Source: Bacteroides sp. (GTDB lineage Bacteria > Bacteroidota > Bacteroidia > Bacteroidales > Muribaculaceae). From it: 53,294 nucleotides of DNA. The notes below the pieces were generated by a model. It made no database searches, was not told the origin of the DNA, and was given only the letters and a program-made list of their open reading frames with translations. Positions 12,246 through 26,691 of the stretch are shown here, one piece after another. A program made the translations under genes and the position numbers. The stretch lies in assembly GCA_014801945.1 (NCBI GenBank), contig JAAVDF010000034.1:47174-100467 (forward strand). Reading direction: 5' to 3'. Position 1 is the first letter of the stretch. Each line of letters begins with the position of its first letter.

Positions 12246-13739
<1,494 letters not shown>

Positions 13740-13767
13740 GACAAACTAACTTGCTTCACTACATACC

Positions 13768-13819
13768 GCAAAGAGTGAGAGGCTGACGTCGGGACAGACG
13801 TCAGCCTCTCACTCTTTGC
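13768..13819. terminator. 23-bp perfect hairpin downstream of guaB
   Basis: Perfect inverted repeat 13768-13790 and 13797-13819 with a 6-nt loop (GGGACA). No T-run follows the stem, so termination may rely on the unusual stem length, or the hairpin may protect the 3' end of the mRNA. Its right arm abuts the region where an over-long start for the next gene would fall. Confidence 0.65.
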
Positions 13820-13908
13820 TACGGAAAACGATCGGCCAACGCAATAAAGCATCCCCGGCCACGTTAGATAAATGTAACAAACATTGGTCAATACCGCCAC
13901 GAAAACTC

Positions 13909-15846
13909 ATGAAGAAAAAAACATTTATCCTGTCTGCCATAGCAGCATCCGCCCTTCTCTCGGCATCCGCTGCAAAGACAACCGATCCGGTCGTGATGAC
14001 AATAAACGGGAAGGACATAAGGCAGAGTGAATTTGAATATCTCTATCAGAAAAATAATCTTCAGCAACTCGCTCCTCAGACATTGGACGAATATATCGAC
14101 ATGTTTGTGGTCTATAAGCTTAAAGTAGCCGAAGCCGAAGCGGCGGGAATACATCTGACGGATGAATTCCGCAAGGAATATGACAGCTATTGTGCTGAAT
14201 TATCAAAACCCTATCTCAGTGATTCGCTTGTCGGGAAACGCCTGATCGATGAAGCATACGGGCGTATGGCAAAATCGCGCAAAGTAAGCCACATCATGCT
14301 GCCGCTCGGAGCTACCTTCGATGAGAATGAGGCTAACCGTGCAAAACTTGACAGCATCCGCAATGCTATCGTCAACGGCGGAGCTGATTTCGGAGAAATG
14401 GCCGTGCGATTCTCATCTGACCGCTCAGCCGTGCGCAATAAGGGCTCTATGGGTTATATCATCGCCAACCGTTATCCCTATCCCTTTGAATATGCAGCCT
14501 ACACTACTCCGGTAGGTGAAATTTCACAAGTCGTCGAGGATGCCCCTTACGGCTTCCATATAATAAAGGTGGAGGATGAACGTCCCAATCCCGGCAAAGT
14601 GGAAGCAAGACACATTCTCAAGCTTACCCGCGGCCTCACTCCGGAGGAAGCAGAGGTGAAGAAAGCCCAGATTGATTCCATCTACAACGTACTCATCAAT
14701 GGAGGCGATTTCGATGCTATCGCACGCGCTGAAAGTGAGGATCCCGGCTCAGCAGCCAACGGAGGTCGTCTGGGTGCTTTCGGTCCGGGCGAAATGGTGA
14801 AAGAATTTGAAGACACATCATTCAGTCTCAAAGAGGGTGAAATTTCCAAACCTTTCGCTACCGCCTATGGATATCATATCGTGCAGACACTCGCTCATCA
14901 TGGCATCGGAACACTCGAAGAGGAGCTTGCCGGTATCCAGACAGCGATCAACCGGGATATACGAGCTACTCTTCCTGAGAAAGAACGTCTCGCCGAACTG
15001 AAACAAACATTCGGGGTAACGGTGGATTCTGCTGCCCTACTCAATGTAAAAGCCAAAATGGCCAATAGCGGTAACACGGCTGATGCATTCGCAGCCGTGA
15101 ACGGAGGCTCTGATGTCATCGCTACTGTAGGTGACCGGAAAATTCTCGCGGGTGAGATCCACGACTTCATCCCTGAAAATGTCCGCTCCGGTGGTAATGC
15201 CGACGCTTTCACAGTGTTCAATCAGGCCATGAACAATCTGATCGATGAGACAGTTATCGGCAAGGCTCGTGAAGAGCTTGCAGCAAACAATGCAGAGTAT
15301 AGAAATATCGTCAATGAATACCGTGACGGCATCCTGCTCTTTGAGATCAGCAACCGTAACGTATGGGAACGTTCGACAACCGACACGGAGGGACTGAACC
15401 AATATTTTGAGAACAACCGATCGAAATATGGGTGGAATGCTCCGCACTATAAGGGATACGTCGTTTTTGCGACTTCTGACTCAATTGCAAATATCGCCAA
15501 GGATTATCTTGCATCTAATAAGATCGAGAAGGATTCACTCATGAATACTATTCATGAGAAATTCGGTAGAAATATCAAACTCGAACGTGTCGTGACCGGT
15601 AAGGGTGAGAATGCTATTGTCGATAACGTTGCGTTTGACGGTGAGCGTCCGGAAGCTCCCGGCCGTTGGGTAGCATGGTTCGGTTATGACGGTCGTGTAA
15701 TCGAAACACCTGAGGAGGCTTCCGATGTCCGCGGACAGATAACCAATGATTATCAGCAGGAGCTGGAAAAGAAATGGGTCGATTCCCTCCGCAAAAAATA
15801 TAAAGTCAAAATCAACAAAAAGGCTATCAAGAAACTGTCTGAATAA
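13909..15846 (+). CDS. Periplasmic peptidyl-prolyl isomerase/chaperone (SurA/PpiC type, two parvulin domains)
   Basis: A 645-residue exported protein. The start is set at 13909 because it begins a clean signal peptide (MKKKTFILSAIAASALLSAS); a longer frame from 13816 would start inside the guaB hairpin. After a SurA-N-like segment come two parvulin domains: residues ~150-245 (KVSHIMLP ... GSMGYIIANR ... YGFHIIKVED) and ~250-345 (EARHILKL ... GGRLGAFGPGEMVKEFED ... YGYHIVQTL). The C-terminal ~300 residues are helical with no recognised domain. SurA-like proteins help outer-membrane proteins fold during periplasmic transit. It is followed by a perfect palindromic terminator shared with the convergent polysaccharide operon. 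Confidence 0.9.
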   Translation: MKKKTFILSAIAASALLSASAAKTTDPVVMTINGKDIRQSEFEYLYQKNNLQQLAPQTLDEYIDMFVVYKLKVAEAEAAGIHLTDEFRKEYDSYCAELSKPYLSDSLVGKRLIDEAYGRMAKSRKVSHIMLPLGATFDENEANRAKLDSIRNAIVNGGADFGEMAVRFSSDRSAVRNKGSMGYIIANRYPYPFEYAAYTTPVGEISQVVEDAPYGFHIIKVEDERPNPGKVEARHILKLTRGLTPEEAEVKKAQIDSIYNVLINGGDFDAIARAESEDPGSAANGGRLGAFGPGEMVKEFEDTSFSLKEGEISKPFATAYGYHIVQTLAHHGIGTLEEELAGIQTAINRDIRATLPEKERLAELKQTFGVTVDSAALLNVKAKMANSGNTADAFAAVNGGSDVIATVGDRKILAGEIHDFIPENVRSGGNADAFTVFNQAMNNLIDETVIGKAREELAANNAEYRNIVNEYRDGILLFEISNRNVWERSTTDTEGLNQYFENNRSKYGWNAPHYKGYVVFATSDSIANIAKDYLASNKIEKDSLMNTIHEKFGRNIKLERVVTGKGENAIVDNVAFDGERPEAPGRWVAWFGYDGRVIETPEEASDVRGQITNDYQQELEKKWVDSLRKKYKVKINKKAIKKLSE

Positions 15847-15917: not shown

Positions 15918-16745
15918 TTAGAAATATTTTATTTTAGTAATATGGGGTGTAATATTGTCAAGATCCGGCAATGACTCATAGTTTCCATATATCTTCCGCA
16001 GATAATTTTCTGCATTCACAGGCACTGGCAACATGGTGTCTTCAAACTCAACGAGTCGTGTTGATTTAATATCTTCCATGGAACGCGCCTTTGTAAAATT
16101 CGTGCCCAACCGATGGCGGAACTGCCCGTTGCTCCCCACCATCCCTATGTAATTCAACAATGGAAATACCATACGCGATACAAATACTCGTGAGAAGGAT
16201 AATACTGAGCGGCGGAGGAATCTGTTTTCCAATCTCTGAGTACGGTAGAAAAACAACTGCTGAAATTTACCGCCGAATTCATATAGCTTCAATGATGAAC
16301 TGGGGCGAAGCACAAATACGTCAATAAACGCTCCGCGATATTTATAGTTCCTATCCGCATTCTCCAGTTCACATATCTCCGTATGCGTGTCACGAATCTT
16401 CGCAAAAGGCTGGACATACTCATAGTCCGTAGATGAATCCTGCCAGACAAGATCGTCACCGGAGTAGTCCATCATCAATCGCCTAAGTCTTTTAAAATCC
16501 TGCTCGAACATCTCGATATCCACATCATCGTCCCACGGAATGAATCCGCCATGACGCAACGCGCCGATACACGTTCCGGAACTCAACCAATATGTGATGC
16601 CGTTATCCCTACACAGACGATCGATTTTTTTCAACATGTCAAGCATCAGTAACTGATGACGGCGAAGCGGAGAGCCATCCGGATTAAAACGTTCTCTCAA
16701 TTCCGAATGCAATGCAGGATCTATCATAAGCTGTACAAATATCAA
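15918..16745 (-). CDS. licD: LicD-family phospho-amine transferase
   Basis: A 275-residue LicD-family nucleotidyltransferase-fold enzyme. The signature is LSSGTCIGALRHGGFIPW followed by DDDVDIEM (metal-binding Asp residues), with the later conserved FIDVFVL. LicD enzymes transfer phosphocholine, phosphoethanolamine or related groups from a CDP carrier onto surface sugars. It is the last gene of the polysaccharide operon, 13 nt after the flippase gene. The presence upstream of a LicC-like cytidylyltransferase makes a complete activate-and-transfer pair, but no choline kinase (LicA) or transporter (LicB) is present, so the donor is probably not simple CDP-choline. Confidence 0.88.
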   Translation of the reverse strand: MIFVQLMIDPALHSELRERFNPDGSPLRRHQLLMLDMLKKIDRLCRDNGITYWLSSGTCIGALRHGGFIPWDDDVDIEMFEQDFKRLRRLMMDYSGDDLVWQDSSTDYEYVQPFAKIRDTHTEICELENADRNYKYRGAFIDVFVLRPSSSLKLYEFGGKFQQLFFYRTQRLENRFLRRSVLSFSRVFVSRMVFPLLNYIGMVGSNGQFRHRLGTNFTKARSMEDIKSTRLVEFEDTMLPVPVNAENYLRKIYGNYESLPDLDNITPHITKIKYF

Positions 16746-16758
16746 TCATTCCTCATGA

Positions 16759-18198
16759 TCATGCCCTTTTATTCATGAATCGTGTGGCGATCATCTTTAT
16801 TTCGCCCAACACAGCCATACGCATGAGAAAAGCAAGACCGAGGTATATTATAGCATAAATTAAAATAGTCAGGAAAAAATACCCCTGAACCATATCTTTC
16901 AGAAAATAAGTAATGGTCATGCATAGGCCACTCAAGCCCAAGATGGGAAGTATGTCGCCCAACTGTCTGTGGAACTTATAACCAGTGTAGCGTGAGGCCA
17001 AAAGAGCATTAACCATAAAGATATTGAAGTTACTCAATGCCATACCCCACAGAAGTCCGTAGATCCCGAAGAGCATTCCAATAAACAGACAGGCAAGAAG
17101 AAATGACCATTTATAAATACTCCAGTAAAACAGAATCCGGCTCTTCCCTTTAGCGGCAACAGCAAAGAAATTTGTATTCTGCAGACAGATGAACAGACCG
17201 CCGACGCACAGTATCTGGAAATATGGAGCACACGCAGCCCATACATCGCCATAAAGAAACACGATGAGAGGTCGGGCAATAAGCATGAGCACACACATCA
17301 ACGGGAAGATCACAAACGAAATGAGACGAGTGTTCAGTCCAAGCATATCGGTCAGTCGCTCCTCCTCATCCTGCATTGAAGCATAGACCGGAAACATGAC
17401 TTGTACGAGAATATTAGGGAGAGTATAGGATGATATTCGGTCAAGCTTATATGCCTGAGAATACAATCCGGTGTCTGTAGCCGAAAAACGTTTACCTATA
17501 ATGATAACCTGAACATTCTTACATATCTCCTGCAACAATCCTGCAGCAAGGAGATAACCGCCAAAACCGAAAAGCTCTTTTACGGAATCGTATGAAAGCG
17601 ATCCTGACGGACGCCAGCGTGCCACGATCCACAGAATCGCAGCCAGCACACTGCTATAGCCCAACTGAAGGATTACCAGACTCCATACGCCCATTCCATG
17701 AAATGCCCCAAGTATCGCGCCTATACCACTTACGATGTAGGCCGACAAATTTGCGAAAGCCAGTTTGTTAAGTTCCAGATATTTCCTGAGTCTATTGGTC
17801 TGGACTATTGAAAGAGCATTCGTGATAAGTATTAGCCCTATGACCCGCAACACATTCTTTATCAAAGGCAAGTCATAAAAATCAGCCACGAAAGGAGCTA
17901 TCGCAAAAATCAGTCCATAAAGTATTACCGCAATAAATATGTTGCAGTAAAACACAGTCGAATAATCCGTCTGTGTGGGCTGTTTTTTCTGAATAAGCGC
18001 AGAGGCAAATCCTCCGTCAATAAGCACTTGAGAGACAACAATGAAAATCTCAATCATACTTATGACACCGAAGTCCTTGGGCAGAAGTAAGCGTGCGAGC
18101 ACAAGATTGACGCCGAACTGCAAACACATGTTTCCAATACGGTCAACACTCGCCCACAGCGTCCCCTTTACCGCCTTCTTACCAATAGATTCAGCCAT
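16759..18198 (-). CDS. wzx: Wzx-type polysaccharide flippase (MOP superfamily, WzxC/TuaB-like)
   Basis: A 479-residue inner-membrane protein with about 14 hydrophobic helices. It begins GKKAVKGTLWASVDRIGNMC, typical of the polysaccharide-synthesis branch of the MOP/MATE exporters. Such proteins flip undecaprenyl-diphosphate-linked repeat units to the periplasm for polymerisation. It lies 3 nt after the cyclodeaminase-like gene and 13 nt before licD, so the flippase is embedded in the amine-decoration half of the locus. This suggests decoration occurs before or around export. Confidence 0.9.
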   Translation of the reverse strand: MAESIGKKAVKGTLWASVDRIGNMCLQFGVNLVLARLLLPKDFGVISMIEIFIVVSQVLIDGGFASALIQKKQPTQTDYSTVFYCNIFIAVILYGLIFAIAPFVADFYDLPLIKNVLRVIGLILITNALSIVQTNRLRKYLELNKLAFANLSAYIVSGIGAILGAFHGMGVWSLVILQLGYSSVLAAILWIVARWRPSGSLSYDSVKELFGFGGYLLAAGLLQEICKNVQVIIIGKRFSATDTGLYSQAYKLDRISSYTLPNILVQVMFPVYASMQDEEERLTDMLGLNTRLISFVIFPLMCVLMLIARPLIVFLYGDVWAACAPYFQILCVGGLFICLQNTNFFAVAAKGKSRILFYWSIYKWSFLLACLFIGMLFGIYGLLWGMALSNFNIFMVNALLASRYTGYKFHRQLGDILPILGLSGLCMTITYFLKDMVQGYFFLTILIYAIIYLGLAFLMRMAVLGEIKMIATRFMNKRA

Positions 18199-18201
18199 CG
18201 A

Positions 18202-19110
18202 TCAAGCCTTTGAATGAAGCAGCTCAACTATTTTTGTAGCGAAAAAGACATCATGAAGCCCAAGTCCAATATTATAGGAAAGTATCCGCTCATCATTCGT
18301 CTCTCTTCCCTGATTCATTCCTTGGATAACATCACTCAATTCACCGAATTTACGGAATTGGTTGAAATATTTGAAATCCTTCACATGTCCAGTATCATCG
18401 GCAAAGACCTTATCAAAGACCGTGTCACAATTCTGAAAACCGCGCGTATGAACCGGAACTACAAGTACTCCGGGCTTAAATAGATCAACATTTTCAACTA
18501 ACAGCTCTCCGGTATAGGTAATACATGAAACAATGACATCAGCCCCTTCCACAAGTTCCTCCATGGAATCGGCAATCTCAAAACGGACACTGGGGAAACG
18601 CGGTCCGAAATCTTCAATTATTTTCTCTGCATGATCCTTGTAACGTTTGAGACGTATTATGACAGTTTCATCACCGGAAACGGAAAGCAAACATTCAAGA
18701 GTTGAACGTCCCATAACACCTAATCCAACAAAAGCATAGACTGATGAACCGATTGCACGGAAAGTTTTTATCGCCAAAGTCGCTACTGCACCAGTACGCA
18801 TTGCCGTGATCCAGTCGCAATTAACCATTGCGAGTATCTCCCCTGACTTAGAATCGAGCAGAAGAAGCTCGCTTTTGAGCGTGGGTTCAGCACCTTCTAT
18901 ACGTGAGATTATCTTACATCCAAACCTTCCGTATTCCTCCGGTAAGAGGCATGGCATGGTATTAATAAAATCAGAACCTGTAGGATGAATGGAGATTTTG
19001 GGAGGTAATTTACAGCGGTCTTTAATCTTAAAAGCCTCTTGCACCCATTCGACACATTGCCTTGGAGAAATATTTAATGATTTTATATCACTGTCTGTTA
19101 TGATCCGCAT
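18202..19110 (-). CDS. Ornithine cyclodeaminase/mu-crystallin family NAD(P)-dependent enzyme
   Basis: A 302-residue cytosolic enzyme of normal family length. The Rossmann nucleotide-binding loop is AFVGLGVMGRSTLECL; the family signature ITAMRTGAVATLAIKTF is present, as is the C-terminal IGLGLHDVFFATKIVE. The family includes ornithine cyclodeaminase, alanine dehydrogenase, lysine cyclodeaminase and SbnB-type imine-forming dehydrogenases; the substrate is not readable from sequence. It lies 18 nt after the cytidylyltransferase/PLP-enzyme fusion gene and 3 nt before the flippase gene. The likely role is to make or modify an amino acid used for glycan decoration. Confidence 0.88.
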   Translation of the reverse strand: MRIITDSDIKSLNISPRQCVEWVQEAFKIKDRCKLPPKISIHPTGSDFINTMPCLLPEEYGRFGCKIISRIEGAEPTLKSELLLLDSKSGEILAMVNCDWITAMRTGAVATLAIKTFRAIGSSVYAFVGLGVMGRSTLECLLSVSGDETVIIRLKRYKDHAEKIIEDFGPRFPSVRFEIADSMEELVEGADVIVSCITYTGELLVENVDLFKPGVLVVPVHTRGFQNCDTVFDKVFADDTGHVKDFKYFNQFRKFGELSDVIQGMNQGRETNDERILSYNIGLGLHDVFFATKIVELLHSKA

Positions 19111-19128
19111 GGTATCTATCTGTATATC

Positions 19129-20940
19129 TTACACAAGTTTTAAAGCTCTGACAAGCGTAGCATTGTCTTGTCTATCACGAACAGCAATCCGGACATATTC
19201 CTTCCCATGTCCGAAGCCTTTTTTTGATGAACAGTCCTTAATCAAAATATTGAACTGTGAAAGCAATCGTAATGTTAGTTCATAGGCCGACATCTTATCC
19301 TTTACTTCACAAAGGAAATAATTTGCCTGCGAAGGGATAACCCGGATAAAATCTATCTCCGAAAGTTCACGGAAAAACATTTCGCGCTCCTCGCGGAATT
19401 TCTCGCAGGCGTGACGATAATCGGATTCGTACTTTCCATAGATCTGCATGTAGTATTCACCGAATGAATTGATGTTCCAGATAGCAACATCCTTTTTCAT
19501 CCAGTTAATCAACTCACAATCAGCAGATGCAAGTACACCTAAACGCAATCCCGGCACTCCGTAGGATTTCGAGATACTTTTCATCACACAAAGGTGAGGA
19601 TAACGCGCAAGCACATCATTGTCAAGCAGCGTATTCGCTTCCCCTCCTTCCGAGAAATCGACAAACGATTCATCAACTATCAATCGGATTCCCTTCCCGG
19701 CACTCCATTCGGCCATGCGTATCAGATCAGCATATCCGATGAAATTACCGGAAGGATTGTCAGGATTTACGATAAGCAACGCATCGATATTCTTATCCGA
19801 GAAGAAGTCCATAAGATCGTCGGCCGTGTAACTGAAATCGTCATTCGACGGGATAAAGATCTCTCGCGCAGACTCAGACAGACGGTTGGGATATTCTTCA
19901 AATGTCGGGTAAGTCACACCAAGACGGCCTGAGATCCTTGACATAAGACTCTTTATAAGCTCCGCCGCACCGTTGCCCACACATACATATTCCTGCTTTA
20001 TCCCGAAATATTTTCCTGCGAGCATTGAATTCACACCCATTCCTGAAGGATATTCCCTCAGAAGTGTATCAAAATTGGCCTTCATCTCATAGACCATCTT
20101 CGGGGACGGGAAATAAGGATTGACGAGATAACAGAAATCCAGCATGCCGGGATATCGCCAGTAGCCACCGAAGCTGTGCTGCATCTTGCTCAGACGCGAA
20201 GCATCATCAGCAAAAATAGTCTCGGCGATACGCAGATCCTGCACATCATCGATCTCATACCATTTACGGTCGGCAATATCCACCGCCTTGATGCCACAAT
20301 GGTCAATCAAGGTCATGACACGCAACACCTGCTCGTAGTACTCATTATTTCCCATTGCCTTGATGTAGGCTTCAAGAAATGGCAGATAACGATTGGAAGC
20401 AAACTCACGGCTGAATTTATAGATGTTTACCGTCTTATAATAACTATCCGTGTCAGCATATTCAAACGCTGATTTAGGAATAAAAGTCACAATGTTGTCC
20501 TCATTATCCTTGCAGATCATCGTGCCATCCATCCAAGGTTGATATTTGGCTACCAACGCGACATTAGGATACTCTGAATCCAAGGCACAATCCAATACAC
20601 TATCTTCAAAGATCAGATCGGACTCAAGCAATATTGTATCATCCGCAAGCAGATAATCACGCGCAAGCCAGAGAGAATAGATATTGTTGGTCTTATCATA
20701 TACGGGATTCTCTATGAACTCTATGGCAAGATCCGGATAAGCCGACGAAACATAGTCCATAAGACTGCGTCGTCCATAACCGACCACTATCACAATCCTG
20801 TTTAAGTCAACAGCTGCAAGCTTACGGATCACTCTGTCTATAAGCTTCACGCCATTGACCTCAATCATACACTTGGTATTATCTTTGGTCAGTTCTCCGA
20901 GACGCCGTCCCATTCCGGCTGCCAATATAATTGCTTGCAT
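19129..20940 (-). CDS. Bifunctional LicC-like cytidylyltransferase fused to a CobD-like PLP enzyme
   Basis: A 603-residue fusion. Residues 1-240 are a sugar/choline-phosphate nucleotidyltransferase: AIILAAGMGRRLGELTKD, acidic ESDLIFED, and the LicC-like stretches NNIYSLWLARD and YEIDDVQDLRIAE. Residues ~255-603 are a fold-type-I PLP enzyme: NPDNPSGNF, DESFVDF (Asp423) and SISKSYGVPGLRLG with Lys458 as the likely Schiff-base lysine. The second half resembles threonine-phosphate decarboxylase CobD (IPGLRLG-like loop, QANYFL, YVRIAVRD) more than ordinary aminotransferases. Two readings follow. A phosphoserine-type decarboxylase plus CTP:phosphoethanolamine cytidylyltransferase would make CDP-ethanolamine. 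Alternatively it is an analogue of PntC-aminotransferase fusions that make CMP-2-aminoethylphosphonate. No phosphonate genes (pepM, ppd) are visible here. Confidence 0.85.
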   Translation of the reverse strand: MQAIILAAGMGRRLGELTKDNTKCMIEVNGVKLIDRVIRKLAAVDLNRIVIVVGYGRRSLMDYVSSAYPDLAIEFIENPVYDKTNNIYSLWLARDYLLADDTILLESDLIFEDSVLDCALDSEYPNVALVAKYQPWMDGTMICKDNEDNIVTFIPKSAFEYADTDSYYKTVNIYKFSREFASNRYLPFLEAYIKAMGNNEYYEQVLRVMTLIDHCGIKAVDIADRKWYEIDDVQDLRIAETIFADDASRLSKMQHSFGGYWRYPGMLDFCYLVNPYFPSPKMVYEMKANFDTLLREYPSGMGVNSMLAGKYFGIKQEYVCVGNGAAELIKSLMSRISGRLGVTYPTFEEYPNRLSESAREIFIPSNDDFSYTADDLMDFFSDKNIDALLIVNPDNPSGNFIGYADLIRMAEWSAGKGIRLIVDESFVDFSEGGEANTLLDNDVLARYPHLCVMKSISKSYGVPGLRLGVLASADCELINWMKKDVAIWNINSFGEYYMQIYGKYESDYRHACEKFREEREMFFRELSEIDFIRVIPSQANYFLCEVKDKMSAYELTLRLLSQFNILIKDCSSKKGFGHGKEYVRIAVRDRQDNATLVRALKLV

Positions 20941-21068: not shown

Positions 21069-22163
21069 TTAACTCTGACTCAATTCCTCAATTATCTGTA
21101 CAAGATAATTTTTTGAAATAGATTTCCAATTATGATCCTGTAAAGATTCCCGGACTCTTGATTCGCTGATTTCATATCTCTTTAGAAGGTATCTTTCAAG
21201 TCCTTCACACAATCCGTCAGCCGTATCCTGAATCAAGATACCATTATCATCATTAATAATTTCTTTATTTGCCCCAGTTTCAGTCGCAATACAAAAGAGG
21301 CCAGAGCGTATGTATTCAAAAGTCTTTGTAGGAGGCTGATGCTCATAATATGATGTGACCGGAACAAAACTTAGACCGACATTACATTGGTCAAAAAAAG
21401 GTTTTATCTGTGTCAGCGGGATATAACCGTGGAACGTCACTACTGAATCCAGACATAATTCCTTAGATAAATTCTTCAATTCATCCAATGAACCCGGAAG
21501 CCCATCACCGACGATATCCACTGTCATTGGTAATTCTGGGTGACGCTCTACAAACATTTTAATCCCTCTAACCATTACATCTATATTCCGGTTGATAAAA
21601 GTCCCGACATAAAGTATTCTCAACTTTTCATCATACTTTTTTACCTCATCGGATATCACATCTGCACCAAGAGGCAAAATCCTCACGGTATCTAAACCGA
21701 TCTTATCACCGATACCACATGTAATCGCGGAAACAAGATCAAAATGCCTACATTCCTTACATAACATCCTATCCGCTTTGATCCTGAATGCCTCGTCAGC
21801 TTCAATGGAAAATGTCCGGACATCAACAATCATTTTTTTCCAAGGACACATCAATTTAATTGCCGAACATCCTTTAAAATATTCTACAATTACCGCTCCT
21901 TTAAATCCGGCACTTAGATATATGGCATTAAGTAAAAATATAATTCCACGAATCATGTAAGGAAATTTAAACGGAGCATATATCACCTTGATACCATCTA
22001 AATGAACTATCTGTCGGCCATGTTTAGCCGACAGAACAGTTATATCATAGTCATCCCTAAGATATTCGCACCATTTGAAAAGATCTGTAAGCTGTCCGAA
22101 CTGCTCCTTATCAATGATGAGGAGTTTGGGACGCTTATTTTTACTTTTATCTTTCATAGTCAA
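21069..22163 (-). CDS. Glycosyltransferase, GT4/group 1-like
   Basis: A 364-residue GT-B-type glycosyltransferase. The C-terminal donor-binding half shows LRILYVGTFINRN, VDIVGDGLPGSLDEL, VTFHGYIPL and TKTFEYIRSGLFCIATETGANKEII, the E-x7-E-like region of family 4. The sugar donor and acceptor cannot be read. It is the only classical glycosyltransferase in the locus. It starts 3 nt after the polymerase gene. The first Met pair (MTM) gives a two-residue ambiguity in the start. Confidence 0.88.
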   Translation of the reverse strand: MTMKDKSKNKRPKLLIIDKEQFGQLTDLFKWCEYLRDDYDITVLSAKHGRQIVHLDGIKVIYAPFKFPYMIRGIIFLLNAIYLSAGFKGAVIVEYFKGCSAIKLMCPWKKMIVDVRTFSIEADEAFRIKADRMLCKECRHFDLVSAITCGIGDKIGLDTVRILPLGADVISDEVKKYDEKLRILYVGTFINRNIDVMVRGIKMFVERHPELPMTVDIVGDGLPGSLDELKNLSKELCLDSVVTFHGYIPLTQIKPFFDQCNVGLSFVPVTSYYEHQPPTKTFEYIRSGLFCIATETGANKEIINDDNGILIQDTADGLCEGLERYLLKRYEISESRVRESLQDHNWKSISKNYLVQIIEELSQS

Positions 22164-22166
22164 TTA

Positions 22167-23492
22167 TCACTTCCAATCGTAGCATCCTACCATCTCATTA
22201 TCACTTCTCTTAATATTGCCAACATATCCATACAAAGCAATATACACTAATATAAAGGTAAATGGGAAGAAACGCAATGAATCATTATACATCATGACCA
22301 GAATAATTATCACCCAAATGAAACATTTGATGTTTATTCCCGCAGGTAATGGACTTCGAGGAAGTAATATTGTAGCTATATTAATACAAAACCATATTAA
22401 ACCAAGGATGCCGAGCTGTATCACTACCGAAAATAAAAATGGTAATGATCCGGTAAGCAGCCACTGCCATTCTGCAGCAAACGGTGTAAGTTCCATTACA
22501 GTTCCACCCTTGAATTGTCCCAAACCTGCACCAAACATTATACCACCCACACAATCGGAAAGTGCCTCTGGTATAAATATGATTTTCGTAAAACGAGGAA
22601 CATCTATATTGCCTATATCCTCAACATCATAAGTTCCGTCCTGAATGAACTGAGCAAGTTCCAAAAGCTCCTCAGGATCCTCACCGATCATATAATCATC
22701 CATAGCTTCCTGAGAGAATACCGACTCCATATTTTGCCCCGTAATAGACAGATATGCTATGCCTAAGCCAAGCATACCTACAATCATAATTGGGACAGCC
22801 ATAATGAGCTTGAACACTGTTCTCCATTCAAATGGAAAGAGAAGCAAGAAATAAGCTAACAAAAATATAAAACTGATCTTTGTTTCATTGAGAAAAGTTG
22901 GATAAAGAAGGATGAAATACATTTTATTGCGAACCACTTCATCCAAGTAATTACCATACCTCCATCTTTTCGACAGAAGATAAAATGAAATAATGTAGAT
23001 CAGAGTAGATACAATACCTGAATAGCCATATCCCATACTTCCTCCACCATGATCGTTAGCACCATAACGGATGAACTGCCATGTCATACAGAACGCCTGC
23101 AAAAATAGGAAGATCAGCAGCTGCTTGTCAAATGAGCTGATAAACTGTTCCCTATACTTCGATGTAAGAAACCAACGGCAAATGGGGACGGCAAAAAGAA
23201 GTCCGAAAAAATCTCTCGTACCATTGAAGCTAAAAATCAAACCGAGATGGTTGAGATGACAGGAAATGACTCCGATGATCAGAAAAGAGACTAAAACAAA
23301 AATATCCCGCCTGTCGCGCAACAAATATATCCCAAGGAAAAGAAATATAATATCTGTCAGCAGCAACACCACACTTCTGAAAGGAATTAGTGGCGGCAGG
23401 AGCTCTTCTGAAATAAATCCAAATGTCAGAAGAGCCCACATCGCGCCGAAAAACAAGCCCGATAAAAACTTATATCTATCAATCATAGTCAA
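22167..23492 (-). CDS. wzy: Wzy-like polysaccharide polymerase
   Basis: A 441-residue membrane protein with about 11-12 hydrophobic helices and one large soluble loop (about residues 230-310, rich in acidic residues: YMIGEDPEELLELAQF). This pattern, with the position between wzc and a glycosyltransferase, fits an O-antigen/capsule polymerase or ligase of the Wzy/WaaL class. Sequence conservation in this family is too low for a firm assignment. Such enzymes join repeat units in the periplasm. It lies 26 nt after wzc. Confidence 0.75.
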   Translation of the reverse strand: MTMIDRYKFLSGLFFGAMWALLTFGFISEELLPPLIPFRSVVLLLTDIIFLFLGIYLLRDRRDIFVLVSFLIIGVISCHLNHLGLIFSFNGTRDFFGLLFAVPICRWFLTSKYREQFISSFDKQLLIFLFLQAFCMTWQFIRYGANDHGGGSMGYGYSGIVSTLIYIISFYLLSKRWRYGNYLDEVVRNKMYFILLYPTFLNETKISFIFLLAYFLLLFPFEWRTVFKLIMAVPIMIVGMLGLGIAYLSITGQNMESVFSQEAMDDYMIGEDPEELLELAQFIQDGTYDVEDIGNIDVPRFTKIIFIPEALSDCVGGIMFGAGLGQFKGGTVMELTPFAAEWQWLLTGSLPFLFSVVIQLGILGLIWFCINIATILLPRSPLPAGINIKCFIWVIIILVMMYNDSLRFFPFTFILVYIALYGYVGNIKRSDNEMVGCYDWK

Positions 23493-23517: not shown

Positions 23518-25812
23518 TTACTTACGGGAAGGCTTGGCAGAGTAGCCGTAGCCATAACCCTTCTTGGATGCGGTACCGTTGACCACAACAGAGAGCTTCT
23601 TCAGGCGATTGTTCTCATATATATTCTCCACATAACGGAGATCGCTCACCGTGCTGTAGTTGACACGTGTGACATATACGGTAGCATCAGCAACCCTGTC
23701 AAGGCTGAACGTATCGCTGACCATACCAACAGGCGCACTGTCAATGATGATATAATCATACATTGTGCGCAGTTTGGCAAAGAGTTCATCAACCTTCTTG
23801 GAGGCCAGAAGTTCCGCAGGATTAGGCGGAATCGGACCGGCGACAATAACGTCACAATCCGCCACGCCCGGCATGGGTACTATGATCGATTCAAGCGTCA
23901 CATTTGACACTGAAAGATAATTGGTAAGACCGAGATGAGGATTTATACCGAGATAATTGGCCAGCTGCGGGTTACGGATATCCATACCCACGAGAAGTAC
24001 ACGTTTGCCTTCAAGGAGTGACAATGTCGCAGCAAGGTTCAATGAAATGAATGATTTGCCTTCACCTGAACGGGTGGATGTCATCAGTACCACCTTATCA
24101 TTCTCCCCTCCAAGCATAAACTGGAGGTTGGTTCGTATAAGTCGGAAAAGCTCCGTCGCAGATGAAGTATCGGTTGCCGAAACGACGAGGCTACGACCGG
24201 AACGGTCAATACACATCTCGCCGAGAATCGGTGCGGAAACATGTTTCTGTACATCCTCCTTAGTGTCAAATTTGCTACGGACAAGACTTCTTACATACAT
24301 CACCACAGGCGGCAGAAGCAATCCCAAAATAAATGCTATCACAAGAATGATCTTCTTTGACACTCCGAGTGGTTCACTGAGAGAGAAAGCCTCGTCTATA
24401 ATCTGGCCCTTAGGAATGGAATTGGCCAGCACCATGGCATTTTCCTCCTGTTTCTGAAGCAGGAACAGATATATCTCCTGTTTAATTTCCTGCTGGCGTT
24501 TCATGTTTATGTATTCGCGTTCCTGCGAAGGGATATTACCGAGCTTTCCGGCAATCGTGTTCTGTTCCGATTTAATCTGCCGGAGATTAAGTTCCGCATT
24601 CTCAAGTGCCTTATGACTCGAAGCAAGGATGTTGTTACGCAGAAGATCCATCTGCTTTGTCAACTGGCGGAGAGCATAGCTGTTGCTACGTGCATTCTGT
24701 GAAAGTTCAAGATGTTTGAACACAAGAGAATTATATGAGTTGATTCCGCTTTGAACTCCACCGTTTGCAACGGTCGTAGGTATCAATGCATTGTAATTTA
24801 TTGAATCTACGAGAAATTCGCGTGTAAGTTTCAGAAGCTCGATCTCTTTCTCGATATTGAAGATCGCAGACTCCATCTGACCCTTCTTAGAGCTCTGATA
24901 ACTGGCTTCTGCAGCGACATCAACAATTCTGTTCTGTTCCTTGTACTTCTGAATGGCCAACTCCGACTCATTAAGCTCACCTGAAAGCAAGTCTATGCGA
25001 TCCTCAAGGAAGGCCGCAGTCTTTTCTCCCTGAAGATTCTTTTCATTTATACCGCGTTCATTATACTTCTCAATGATTTTATTGAGGATGGCAACTCCAT
25101 ATTCGGCATTCGGAGTATTGAGGCCGAGACTGATTACGTTGCTCTTCTTACTACCTCGATAAGCCATCACATCCTTATCCATCTCCTCAGCCGCAACATC
25201 GTAACCGCTGAAAGCGATTTTTGTCTTCAGTTTCTCTCCCTTGACATAAGCAGGGGTAGTCACTACGGTAAAATCGCCATATATAGTATGGAGTTCAGTC
25301 GGAAGAGCCACATCCTTTACCTTGGCAATAACATCGCGATTCACCTTAGCTTTGATATCCGCGCGACCCTTATCATTGATTTTTACATCAAAGATTATGG
25401 TTGACATCAATGTATCCGAAATGGCCGGAGCCACTACATCGACCGGAAATTCCGGGAATGCGAGATGACTCTTTAGGAAACCATCGCTCACATAATGAAG
25501 TCTGTTTATTCCTAACTCCTTGGCAACGTTTTTAAACAATGAGTGAGAACCGATCACAAACACCTCGTCCTCGACAAATCCTTTAGAACCAAAGAGGCTT
25601 CCCATGCCACCGAGATCTGCCATCGGATTTGAGTCCTCCTGCTGGATAAGCACATTTGCCCTTACCGCCATTGGACGCTGATACTTTCTGGTATAGAGAT
25701 ATCCGAGTCCTACACATAAAATGACCGAAATGACAAACCAATACCATTTCGAGAGATATGTTTTGATCAGTGCATTGAAATCAATGAAATCCGATGCATT
25801 CTTTTTTGCCAT
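23518..25812 (-). CDS. wzc: Polysaccharide co-polymerase/BY-kinase (Wzc type)
   Basis: A 764-residue inner-membrane protein. A Wzz domain lies between two transmembrane helices (about 20-42, WYWFVISVILCVGLGYLY; and about 495-520, KKIILVIAFILGLLLPPVVM), with a long periplasmic coiled coil. The cytosolic tyrosine autokinase has Walker A RSGEGKSFISLNLA, Walker A' VLLVGMDIRNP and Walker B YDYIIIDSAP. The C-terminus holds a short tyrosine cluster (KKGYGYGYSAK), the usual autophosphorylation site. BY-kinases control chain length and export. It lies 30 nt after wza, and the pair is the standard export core. Confidence 0.95.
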   Translation of the reverse strand: MAKKNASDFIDFNALIKTYLSKWYWFVISVILCVGLGYLYTRKYQRPMAVRANVLIQQEDSNPMADLGGMGSLFGSKGFVEDEVFVIGSHSLFKNVAKELGINRLHYVSDGFLKSHLAFPEFPVDVVAPAISDTLMSTIIFDVKINDKGRADIKAKVNRDVIAKVKDVALPTELHTIYGDFTVVTTPAYVKGEKLKTKIAFSGYDVAAEEMDKDVMAYRGSKKSNVISLGLNTPNAEYGVAILNKIIEKYNERGINEKNLQGEKTAAFLEDRIDLLSGELNESELAIQKYKEQNRIVDVAAEASYQSSKKGQMESAIFNIEKEIELLKLTREFLVDSINYNALIPTTVANGGVQSGINSYNSLVFKHLELSQNARSNSYALRQLTKQMDLLRNNILASSHKALENAELNLRQIKSEQNTIAGKLGNIPSQEREYINMKRQQEIKQEIYLFLLQKQEENAMVLANSIPKGQIIDEAFSLSEPLGVSKKIILVIAFILGLLLPPVVMYVRSLVRSKFDTKEDVQKHVSAPILGEMCIDRSGRSLVVSATDTSSATELFRLIRTNLQFMLGGENDKVVLMTSTRSGEGKSFISLNLAATLSLLEGKRVLLVGMDIRNPQLANYLGINPHLGLTNYLSVSNVTLESIIVPMPGVADCDVIVAGPIPPNPAELLASKKVDELFAKLRTMYDYIIIDSAPVGMVSDTFSLDRVADATVYVTRVNYSTVSDLRYVENIYENNRLKKLSVVVNGTASKKGYGYGYSAKPSRK

Positions 25813-25841: not shown

Positions 25842-26645
25842 TTATTTTACAGTCAGTGCAATGACAAGCGATGCGATTACGGATGACGCACTCACTATCG
25901 TAGAAATCACTGAAAGTTTGAAAGCATTATCCTGATTGTATTTCGAGTTGGCCTGACGCACTTTGTTAGGCTCAACATAGATATAATCATTCTGCTCCAG
26001 ATAATAGTACGGTGATGACAGTACTTCTGACGAATTCATGTCAAGATGCACATATTCCTTCTTACCATCCTTTTCACGGATAAGCAACACATTCGAACGC
26101 TCGCCGTAAGGAGTCATATCACCAGCGGCAGAAATGGCATCAAGGATTGAAAAACGGTTTCGTGTAACTTTGACAGATCCGGGATTATTGACCTCACCGG
26201 CAACATTGACATGGAAATTGACAAGCTCGACCGATACCATAGGATCTGTCACCGCCTTGCTTATATCTTCGGTAAGTTTCGCCTGCAGCTGCTCTACCGT
26301 CATACCGGCGACGTGTATTCTGCCGAGTTCAGGGAAATCGATATCCCCCGATGTCGTCACTATATATGTCTTCGGCGTGGGAGTGATGTTAACTCCGAAT
26401 TGTTCGCGCGTAGCGGGGTTGACAGACGGCACATTATATATAGCTGTCGCTTCAGGATTGACTGAAGTAACAGAGATGAAAAGTTCGTCATCAGGTTTGA
26501 TCTCCGGGAGATAGTTCTCAGCCGGGAAAGTTCCCTCTTTTATAGTTGAAATATCAGTAAAGTAAGGTAATACGGTCTTACTGCTACTGCATGATGCTAA
26601 CATTGCAGCAACAAATGTGCCAAGCAATAATGATCTGGTTTTCAT
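25842..26645 (-). CDS. wza: Polysaccharide export lipoprotein (Wza type)
   Basis: A 267-residue lipoprotein of the outer-membrane export channel. The start at 26645 is preferred: it yields the signal MKTRSLLLGTFVAAMLASCS with lipobox MLASC. The upstream Met (26663) lies inside the -7 box. A Poly_export domain (LPEIKPDDELFISVTSVNPE ... GDIDFPELGRIHVAGMTVEQ) and an SLBB domain (VNVAGEVNNPGSVKVTRNRF) are visible, followed by a C-terminal hydrophobic helix (VISTIVSASSVIASLVIALT). It is the first gene of the locus and directly downstream of a strong promoter. Confidence 0.94.
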   Translation of the reverse strand: MKTRSLLLGTFVAAMLASCSSSKTVLPYFTDISTIKEGTFPAENYLPEIKPDDELFISVTSVNPEATAIYNVPSVNPATREQFGVNITPTPKTYIVTTSGDIDFPELGRIHVAGMTVEQLQAKLTEDISKAVTDPMVSVELVNFHVNVAGEVNNPGSVKVTRNRFSILDAISAAGDMTPYGERSNVLLIREKDGKKEYVHLDMNSSEVLSSPYYYLEQNDYIYVEPNKVRQANSKYNQDNAFKLSVISTIVSASSVIASLVIALTVK

Positions 26646-26660
26646 AAAACAGTTTTTTCT

Positions 26661-26691
26661 CAAAAATAAGAATGCCGTTAATGCATTACAA
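26661..26691 (-). promoter_or_regulatory. Promoter of the polysaccharide locus
   Basis: On the minus strand, TTG (complement of 26689-26691), a 20-nt spacer and TATTTTTG (complement of 26661-26668). The predicted leader is about 11 nt. No invertible repeats flank it, so phase variation of the kind seen at many Bacteroides capsule promoters is not indicated. Confidence 0.75.

Follow-up and report, generated by a model that had tools for sequence, protein, structure and literature searches.

A 53,294-nucleotide stretch of a Bacteroides sp. genome from the Muribaculaceae (assembly GCA_014801945.1, contig JAAVDF010000034.1, positions 47,174 to 100,467; hereafter the window) contains a capsule or exopolysaccharide locus on its minus strand, which ends in four genes encoding a cytidylyltransferase fused to a pyridoxal phosphate (PLP) enzyme, a reductase of the ornithine cyclodeaminase (OCD)/mu-crystallin family, a Wzx-type flippase and a LicD-family phosphotransferase. 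The place beside the fusion gene is a site of exchange: in related loci it holds either OCD or an unrelated reductase of the opine dehydrogenase (ODH) type, the latter in some cases on the same chain as the fusion, and key alignment columns of the fusion and of ODH are conserved among the relatives. The genes may form a capsule-decoration module in which cytidine diphosphate (CDP)-ethanolamine is N-carboxyalkylated and transferred by LicD; judged from the sequences, this whole chain of steps has in our estimate an even chance of being correct. The four genes are as follows.

19129..20940, minus strand: fusion protein, 603 residues, cytidylyltransferase (LicC/PntC type) plus PLP domain (CobD/SMUL_1544 type); open reading frame (ORF), Pfam, NCBIfam, PDB sequence match, fold
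18202..19110, minus strand: OCD/mu-crystallin-family reductase, 302 residues, predicted to be N-carboxyalkylating; ORF, Pfam, NCBIfam
16759..18198, minus strand: Wzx-type flippase; ORF, Pfam Polysacc_synt_3 (2e-84)
15918..16745, minus strand: LicD-family phosphotransferase; ORF, Pfam LicD (8e-37)

ORFs and Pfam agree with a preliminary description of this DNA on the adjacency, coordinates and families of these genes. Every one exceeds the curated Pfam cut-off of its family, the fusion matching NTP_transf_3 (4e-12) and Aminotran_1_2 (1.6e-30) and the OCD gene OCD_Mu_crystall (6e-26). The four are read as one operon because the gaps between them are only 3 to 18 nucleotides.

Exchange of two reductases beside the fusion

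Flanking sequences were examined at 141 loci (the window, L035-L046, L068-L083, L127 and L143-L253), where reductases were sought within 3 kb of the fusion with profiles built from aligned seeds. L224 yielded no fusion ORF, which leaves 140 loci, or 134 after the removal of copies at 99% identity. OCD alone lies beside the fusion in 47 of the 134, ODH alone in 45, both in four and an ODH on the same chain in eight; neither reductase is near in 24, one of which (L167) shows a PF02317 match immediately downstream, where the sequence contains unknown letters, and at the remaining six the contig ends within 1.2 kb. Among the 92 loci with OCD only or ODH only, the reductase follows directly downstream on the same strand, at a distance of at most 150 nucleotides, in 80 and directly downstream on the other strand in six, the other six being L046, L078, L080, L081, L151 and L229. 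Strict mutual exclusion of OCD and ODH, which held in the first 13 fusion genomes, had to be abandoned in view of the four loci that carry both.

The single chains (cytidylyltransferase-PLP-ODH, about 943-953 residues) are encoded at L187, L195, L205, L209, L210, L211, L212 and L218, and their sister loci (L206, L213, L214, L217 and L221) have a convergent OCD gene some 80 nucleotides past the fusion. DNA inversion as a switch between these two states was considered and rejected; replacement is likelier because the other reductase has no second copy in the stretches viewed, in which no inverted-repeat search was run.

In L068 and L069, the two closest named relatives of the window's locus, ODH occupies exactly the place of the window's OCD. 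L069 reads wza, wzc, polymerase, one extra gene, glycosyltransferase, fusion, ODH, wzx, licD, and its proteins, ODH and the extra gene excepted, are 65-85% identical to those of the window; L068, whose fusion is 87% identical to the window's, has the order fusion, ODH, wzx, licD preceded by different genes. Beyond licD, the next two genes of both loci are, by eye, those found beside the window's locus at 12261-15846. A tree built from 127 fusions (quick search, LG+G4; 43 of the 124 inner branches open) makes L068 the partner of the window (97, starred), and both lie in a clade (100, starred) whose five rows comprise four with ODH and one with OCD. OCD versus ODH, separate or fused, requires at least 24 changes over 96 rows, and with the labels 'none' and 'both' added the count is 43 changes on 124 rows; if only starred branches are considered, 18 changes remain necessary for the OCD label and 19 for ODH, each against all others. 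Counts of this kind can come out too high where capsule loci recombine. The OCD and ODH labels are still clustered on the tree, as 0 of 500 shuffles gave a number as low.

The preliminary description had treated the four genes as belonging together, and as a conserved unit they do not: what recurs is the fusion with a reductase, OCD or ODH, and the flanks retrieved contain LicD at only 76 of the 134 loci.

The PLP domain

The PLP domain spans residues of about 256-603, with K458 as the PLP lysine. Its resemblance to CobD, proposed at the outset, is upheld: TIGR01140 (CobD) is its best NCBIfam model at 173.3 bits, versus 140.4 bits for the HisC model TIGR01141, whose cut-off of 276.55 is not reached, and among PDB sequences CobD (1lc5, E 6e-30) ranks above HisC (1fg3, E 2e-16), the best match being 6oux (E 2e-43). 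The domain is called CobD-like and not CobD because 173.3 bits falls short of the equivalog cut-off of 290.55. The closest relative by sequence is the decarboxylase SMUL_1544 of Sulfurospirillum multivorans; by fold, together with the PLP lysine and aspartate, the domain belongs with CobD, its closest fold among the matches listed, tied with two others. SMUL_1544 and CobD serve cobamide synthesis, whereas the window's domain shares its chain with a cytidylyltransferase and belongs to a capsule locus. Given these nearest neighbours, the simplest description of the pair still appears to be the earlier one, in which the fusion makes CDP-ethanolamine starting from a phosphoamino acid and LicD is the transferase.

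A rival reading makes the PLP domain a transaminase that produces serinol phosphate in the manner of Cj1437 of Campylobacter jejuni, an enzyme which reportedly acts on dihydroxyacetone phosphate; the product would be CDP-serinol, perhaps N-alkylated later. Decarboxylase and transaminase readings both have a precedent, because one C. jejuni capsule is made with both kinds of enzyme, Cj1436 as a decarboxylase of serine phosphate and Cj1437 as the producer of serinol phosphate, from a substrate given as dihydroxyacetone in the available part of the report (PMC12409886). The two systems are alike in that ethanolamine phosphate or serinol phosphate is made for a capsule, but in C. jejuni an amide bond joins the amine to glucuronate and the phosphate is lost, and the available text mentions neither CDP activation nor a LicD step (PMC12409886). 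The fold neighbours of the window's domain do include HisC entries, one of which, 3ftb (titled histidinol-phosphate aminotransferase), ties with CobD, but the closest sequence is that of a decarboxylase and CobD scores above HisC, and we consider a serinol route unlikely.

The cytidylyltransferase domain

Residues 1-240 of the fusion constitute a nucleotidyltransferase whose closest solved structures are LicC (1jyk, E 1.4e-13) and PntC (6pd1, E 2e-13), and the LicC-related NTP-transferase domain PF12804 scores 47 bits over a cut-off of 27; the matches listed by a fold search are all to the PLP domain, with none to the cytidylyltransferase domain among them. In Treponema denticola PntC, Glu104 and Glu196 are positioned at the primary amine of aminoethylphosphonate, and their equivalents in LicC are Asp105 and Asp192, as far as the available part of the report goes (PMC6697681). 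The window's fusion has Glu106 aligned with PntC Glu104, in place of the LicC aspartate at position 105, and Tyr202, beside Glu203, at the second amine position (counted on the alignment). Glu106 is conserved in 132 of 134 relatives, the other two having a gap. Because of this glutamate at the first amine position, the domain would suit a small primary amine better than choline.

The LicC/LicD phosphocholine pathway of Streptococcus pneumoniae and Haemophilus is similar in that cytidine triphosphate (CTP) activates a small phosphorylated amine and LicD transfers it to a glycan. The window's system differs in that the amine would be made within the same polypeptide by the PLP domain, a reductase is added and a glutamate stands at LicC Asp105; there is no choline kinase among the eight locus proteins scanned, no genome-wide search for one having been made. 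The PntC-aminotransferase fusion of T. denticola (Tde1415, 6pd1) likewise joins a cytidylyltransferase to a PLP enzyme and has the glutamate for a primary amine, but its PLP domain is of class V, whereas that of the window is of class I/II (Aminotran_1_2 only) and CobD-like.

The shared glutamate lends something to the idea that the substrate is aminoethylphosphonate and the fusion an analogue of PntC-aminotransferase. Such a phosphonate pathway, raised in the preliminary description as co-variation of pepM/ppd with the fusion, was sought in 24 genomes with the phosphoenolpyruvate (PEP) mutase model TIGR02320, and the outcome is mostly negative: three genomes have a match over the cut-off, always on another contig than the fusion or the unfused pair of its halves described below (G383 is the one of the three with a fusion), and the window's genome (2.6 Mb, 42 contigs, 79% complete) has none. 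To the contrary, L070 and L071, the only loci searched for it, have a phosphonate-type cluster with a nucleotidyltransferase-PEP mutase fusion just upstream of the fusion-ODH pair. The cluster of L070 (3705-7982) consists by Pfam of a triple fusion NTP_transf + CTP_transf_like + PEP mutase followed by a thiamine pyrophosphate enzyme and an Fe-alcohol dehydrogenase, and L071 has a similar 669-residue profile match. An alcohol dehydrogenase closes the cluster in L070, so that the likelier product there would be hydroxyethylphosphonate, a compound lacking an amine. The phosphonate route has mostly been set aside, surviving as a weak rival on account of L070 and L071, and we deem it highly improbable.

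The reductases

The window's OCD gene product exceeds the curated cut-off of PF02423 and has the fold of that family, which includes an alanine dehydrogenase. Its structure model is closest, in a tie with others, to SbnB, the ligand of which is an opine-like secondary amine. The gene has no PF02317 domain, nor does the window's genome contain a PF02317 match, and its product could resemble an opine dehydrogenase in function at most. In the relatives, PF02317 was over its cut-off in all 11 ODH genes tested (L036, L044, L046, L068, L069, L070, L079, L080, L083, L159 and the triple chain of L211), and Pfam confirms OCD in L213. The alignment positions of the catalytic residues of octopine dehydrogenase, His212, Arg324 and Asp329, are retained in 58 of 58 ODH of the relatives, a likeness to the octopine and nopaline dehydrogenases.

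The OCD and ODH families share a chemistry at C=N bonds adjacent to carboxylates, and for this reason the reductase would be expected to join a 2-oxo acid to the ethanolamine nitrogen. OCD had previously been assigned the supply or alteration of an unusual amine or amino acid by an unexplained route. That assignment is not supported: because ODH takes the same place and also occurs fused to the same protein, OCD more likely modifies the nitrogen of ethanolamine. To our knowledge no opine enzyme acts on ethanolamine phosphate or CDP-ethanolamine.

In another reading the reductases would act ahead of the PLP domain and provide its substrate, aminating 3-phosphohydroxypyruvate reductively with ammonia, a reaction for which the alanine dehydrogenase within the OCD fold family offers a parallel. 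However, those octopine and nopaline dehydrogenases that have been characterised use amino acids rather than ammonia in the condensation, phosphoserine belongs to ordinary metabolism, and 24 of the 134 loci have neither reductase nearby; we hold the ammonia route to be very unlikely.

A proposed pathway

As suggested by its nearest relatives, the PLP domain would decarboxylate O-phospho-L-serine to ethanolamine phosphate, which the cytidylyltransferase domain would convert with CTP into CDP-ethanolamine. Before or after the CTP step, the reductase (OCD in the window, ODH in sister loci and sometimes on the chain of the fusion) would condense the primary amine with a 2-oxo acid, for example pyruvate or 2-oxoglutarate; its reduction of the resulting imine by NAD(P)H would yield the N-(1-carboxyalkyl)ethanolamine phosphate unit. 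LicD would then move the phosphodiester to the repeat unit, and Wzx would flip the repeat. The window's LicD scores 128 bits for PF04991 over a curated cut-off of 22.6, and the only NCBIfam model that it matches is that of Mf1 (NF045866; 72 bits, below the equivalog cut-off of 225), a LicD relative for which the transfer of phosphoethanolamine from CDP-ethanolamine in vitro is described in the available part of the report (PMC11982090). Because some relatives begin at an equivalent ATG (MIDP...), the true start of the gene is probably the ATG at 16727, six codons inside the listed TTG.

The predicted residue is of a type known as a structure, and Proteus mirabilis O14 reportedly bears it. The available part of one paper lists N-[(R)-1-carboxyethyl]ethanolamine phosphate for O-polysaccharides of P. 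mirabilis (PMC9630907), and the accessible text of another describes Providencia as a source of the N-(1-carboxyethyl) derivatives of alanine and lysine (PMC10609480). No biosynthetic genes for N-(1-carboxyalkyl)ethanolamine phosphate were found in the open-licence literature; the available account of the Proteus O14 gene cluster names no opine or ethanolamine genes, and 'licD' is absent from it too (PMC5560731).

Several observations weigh against this pathway. To the tie with 3ftb is added, within the PLP domain, the position of CobD Arg323, which is Lys568 in the window (counted on the alignment); moreover, the PLP lysine is replaced by Ser, Thr and Gly in the fusions of L040, L170 and L230, copies that are possibly dead as decarboxylases. 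OCD lies below every equivalog cut-off (best 88.2 of 417 and 76 of 326.9 bits), including those of the named enzymes tested, which were ornithine cyclodeaminase, SbnB, alanine dehydrogenase and P2C reductase. OCD and ODH may do different jobs, because L158, L159, L178 and L226 carry both in tandem. The incomplete company of LicD, the PEP mutase-positive genomes and the phosphonate-type clusters of L070 and L071 belong on the same side, as do four 'none' loci (L035, L037, L040 and L045) whose genomes were searched and hold neither ODH nor OCD, seven more for which no ODH was seen (L173, L180, L199, L230, L239, L246 and L253), a search of each genome not being demonstrable, and the fusion-negative genome G552 (84% complete; L269), which has an ODH of the fusion-linked clade. 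G926, the genome of L253, is outside the family sample used for the PF02317 search.

A simpler scheme would have plain phosphoethanolamine as the decoration, while OCD would make or alter some other amine or amino acid found in the glycan. Fusion and LicD, which would suffice for it, occur together without a nearby reductase in 14 of the 134 loci. But the position of OCD or ODH beside the fusion, with ODH on the same chain in eight loci, ties the reductase to the CDP-amine, and in 11 of the 24 'none' loci the genome has an ODH elsewhere or further along. In ten of these (G194, G293, G417, G487, G519, G523, G546, G550, G639 and G682) it scores 366-488 bits to the ODH profile, and in G652 it lies 3.9 kb downstream; L233, also a 'none' locus, belongs to a genome with another fusion copy (L159), which is accompanied by OCD and ODH. 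Plain phosphoethanolamine throughout is thus improbable in our view; under the N-carboxyalkylation pathway, loci without a reductase would make the plain form.

We further put forward, as a tentative extension with rather less than an even prospect of being right, that the place beside the fusion is a diversification cassette. Unrelated reductases (OCD, ODH, both or neither) would write different N-substituents on the same CDP-ethanolamine, varied by the keto acid used or by how the new stereocentre is configured; gut Bacteroidales would swap them repeatedly, changing the charge and antigenicity of the capsule, and the cassette would be the genetic basis of opine-type phosphoethanolamine in bacterial glycans. 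If N-carboxyalkylation is true, a concrete gene set is at hand for a reported surface residue, in the cultured Phocaeicola vulgatus ATCC 8482, and the module brings opine chemistry into capsule decoration. With two unrelated reductases exchanged many times at one operon position, the nitrogen substituent would be a variable feature of the surface.

Occurrence

In a sample of 393 genomes of the order, 35 have a match to the fusion at E 1e-30 or better. Twelve besides the window's carry it at full length (in G266 in two frames), G371 has a piece at a contig end, and 11 further genomes encode the two halves as adjacent genes (33-40% identity). Within the family 107 of 397 genomes, about a quarter, match at 1e-100, and a phylum sample of 395 genomes gave, besides the window's own, one match (G926, 34% identity). 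A collection of named genomes contributed 18 loci, two of them in records titled Clostridia; 16 are of full length (L068-L083), including that of P. vulgatus ATCC 8482 (L083), and ODH is near the fusion in 15 of the 16, the other, L076, ending 107 nucleotides past it.

The association of ODH with the fusion extends to whole genomes. PF02317, some genome matches of which belong to other subfamilies, is present in 26 of the 393 order genomes: five of the 13 with a full-length fusion (the window's included) and 21 of the 380 others (Fisher p 0.0008). It is present in 57 of 317 family genomes, 44 of them fusion-positive, while 27% of the family sample is fusion-positive. Nine of the 13 family genomes with PF02317 and no fusion match were inspected, and eight have a distant subfamily (57-105 bits to the ODH profile) in other polysaccharide loci (L264-L268 and L270-L272); in five, by eye, the gene lies between an ATP-grasp-like gene and one for a protein of 617-627 residues.

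Unfused pairs and other combinations

Where the halves are separate genes, a CDP-alcohol phosphotransferase follows directly downstream of the PLP gene in 10 of 11 loci (tblastn), the exception being L067, where the contig end cuts within the PLP gene; Pfam confirmed the enzyme in three of three tested. L047-L056 have the unfused cytidylyltransferase, the CobD-like PLP gene and the phosphotransferase in a row, and the seven neighbourhoods of unfused pairs that were viewed look by eye unlike capsule loci. A CDP-alcohol phosphotransferase also accompanies the fusion in L044 (Pfam), L164 and L182 (profile matches). These neighbours lend additional support to a CDP-amino-alcohol as the product. 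The unfused triplet is a possible route from phosphoserine via CDP-ethanolamine to phosphatidylethanolamine, and the pair with its phosphotransferase suggests a further route to amino-alcohol phospholipids. L061 and L062 have a HisC-like PLP gene (22-25% identity), a cytidylyltransferase and LicD close together, perhaps an independent analogue.

The remainder of the locus

The window contains no tRNA and no Rfam match at gathering score. Upstream of the fusion gene the capsule locus comprises four further genes, the second of which is inferred to encode a polymerase from its position.

21069..22163, minus strand: glycosyltransferase (group 1), same locus; ORF, Pfam
22167..23492, minus strand: membrane protein without a family match, putative Wzy-type polymerase; position only
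23518..25812, minus strand: Wzc-type chain-length/tyrosine kinase; ORF, Pfam, NCBIfam
25842..26663, minus strand: Wza-type export protein; ORF, Pfam, NCBIfam

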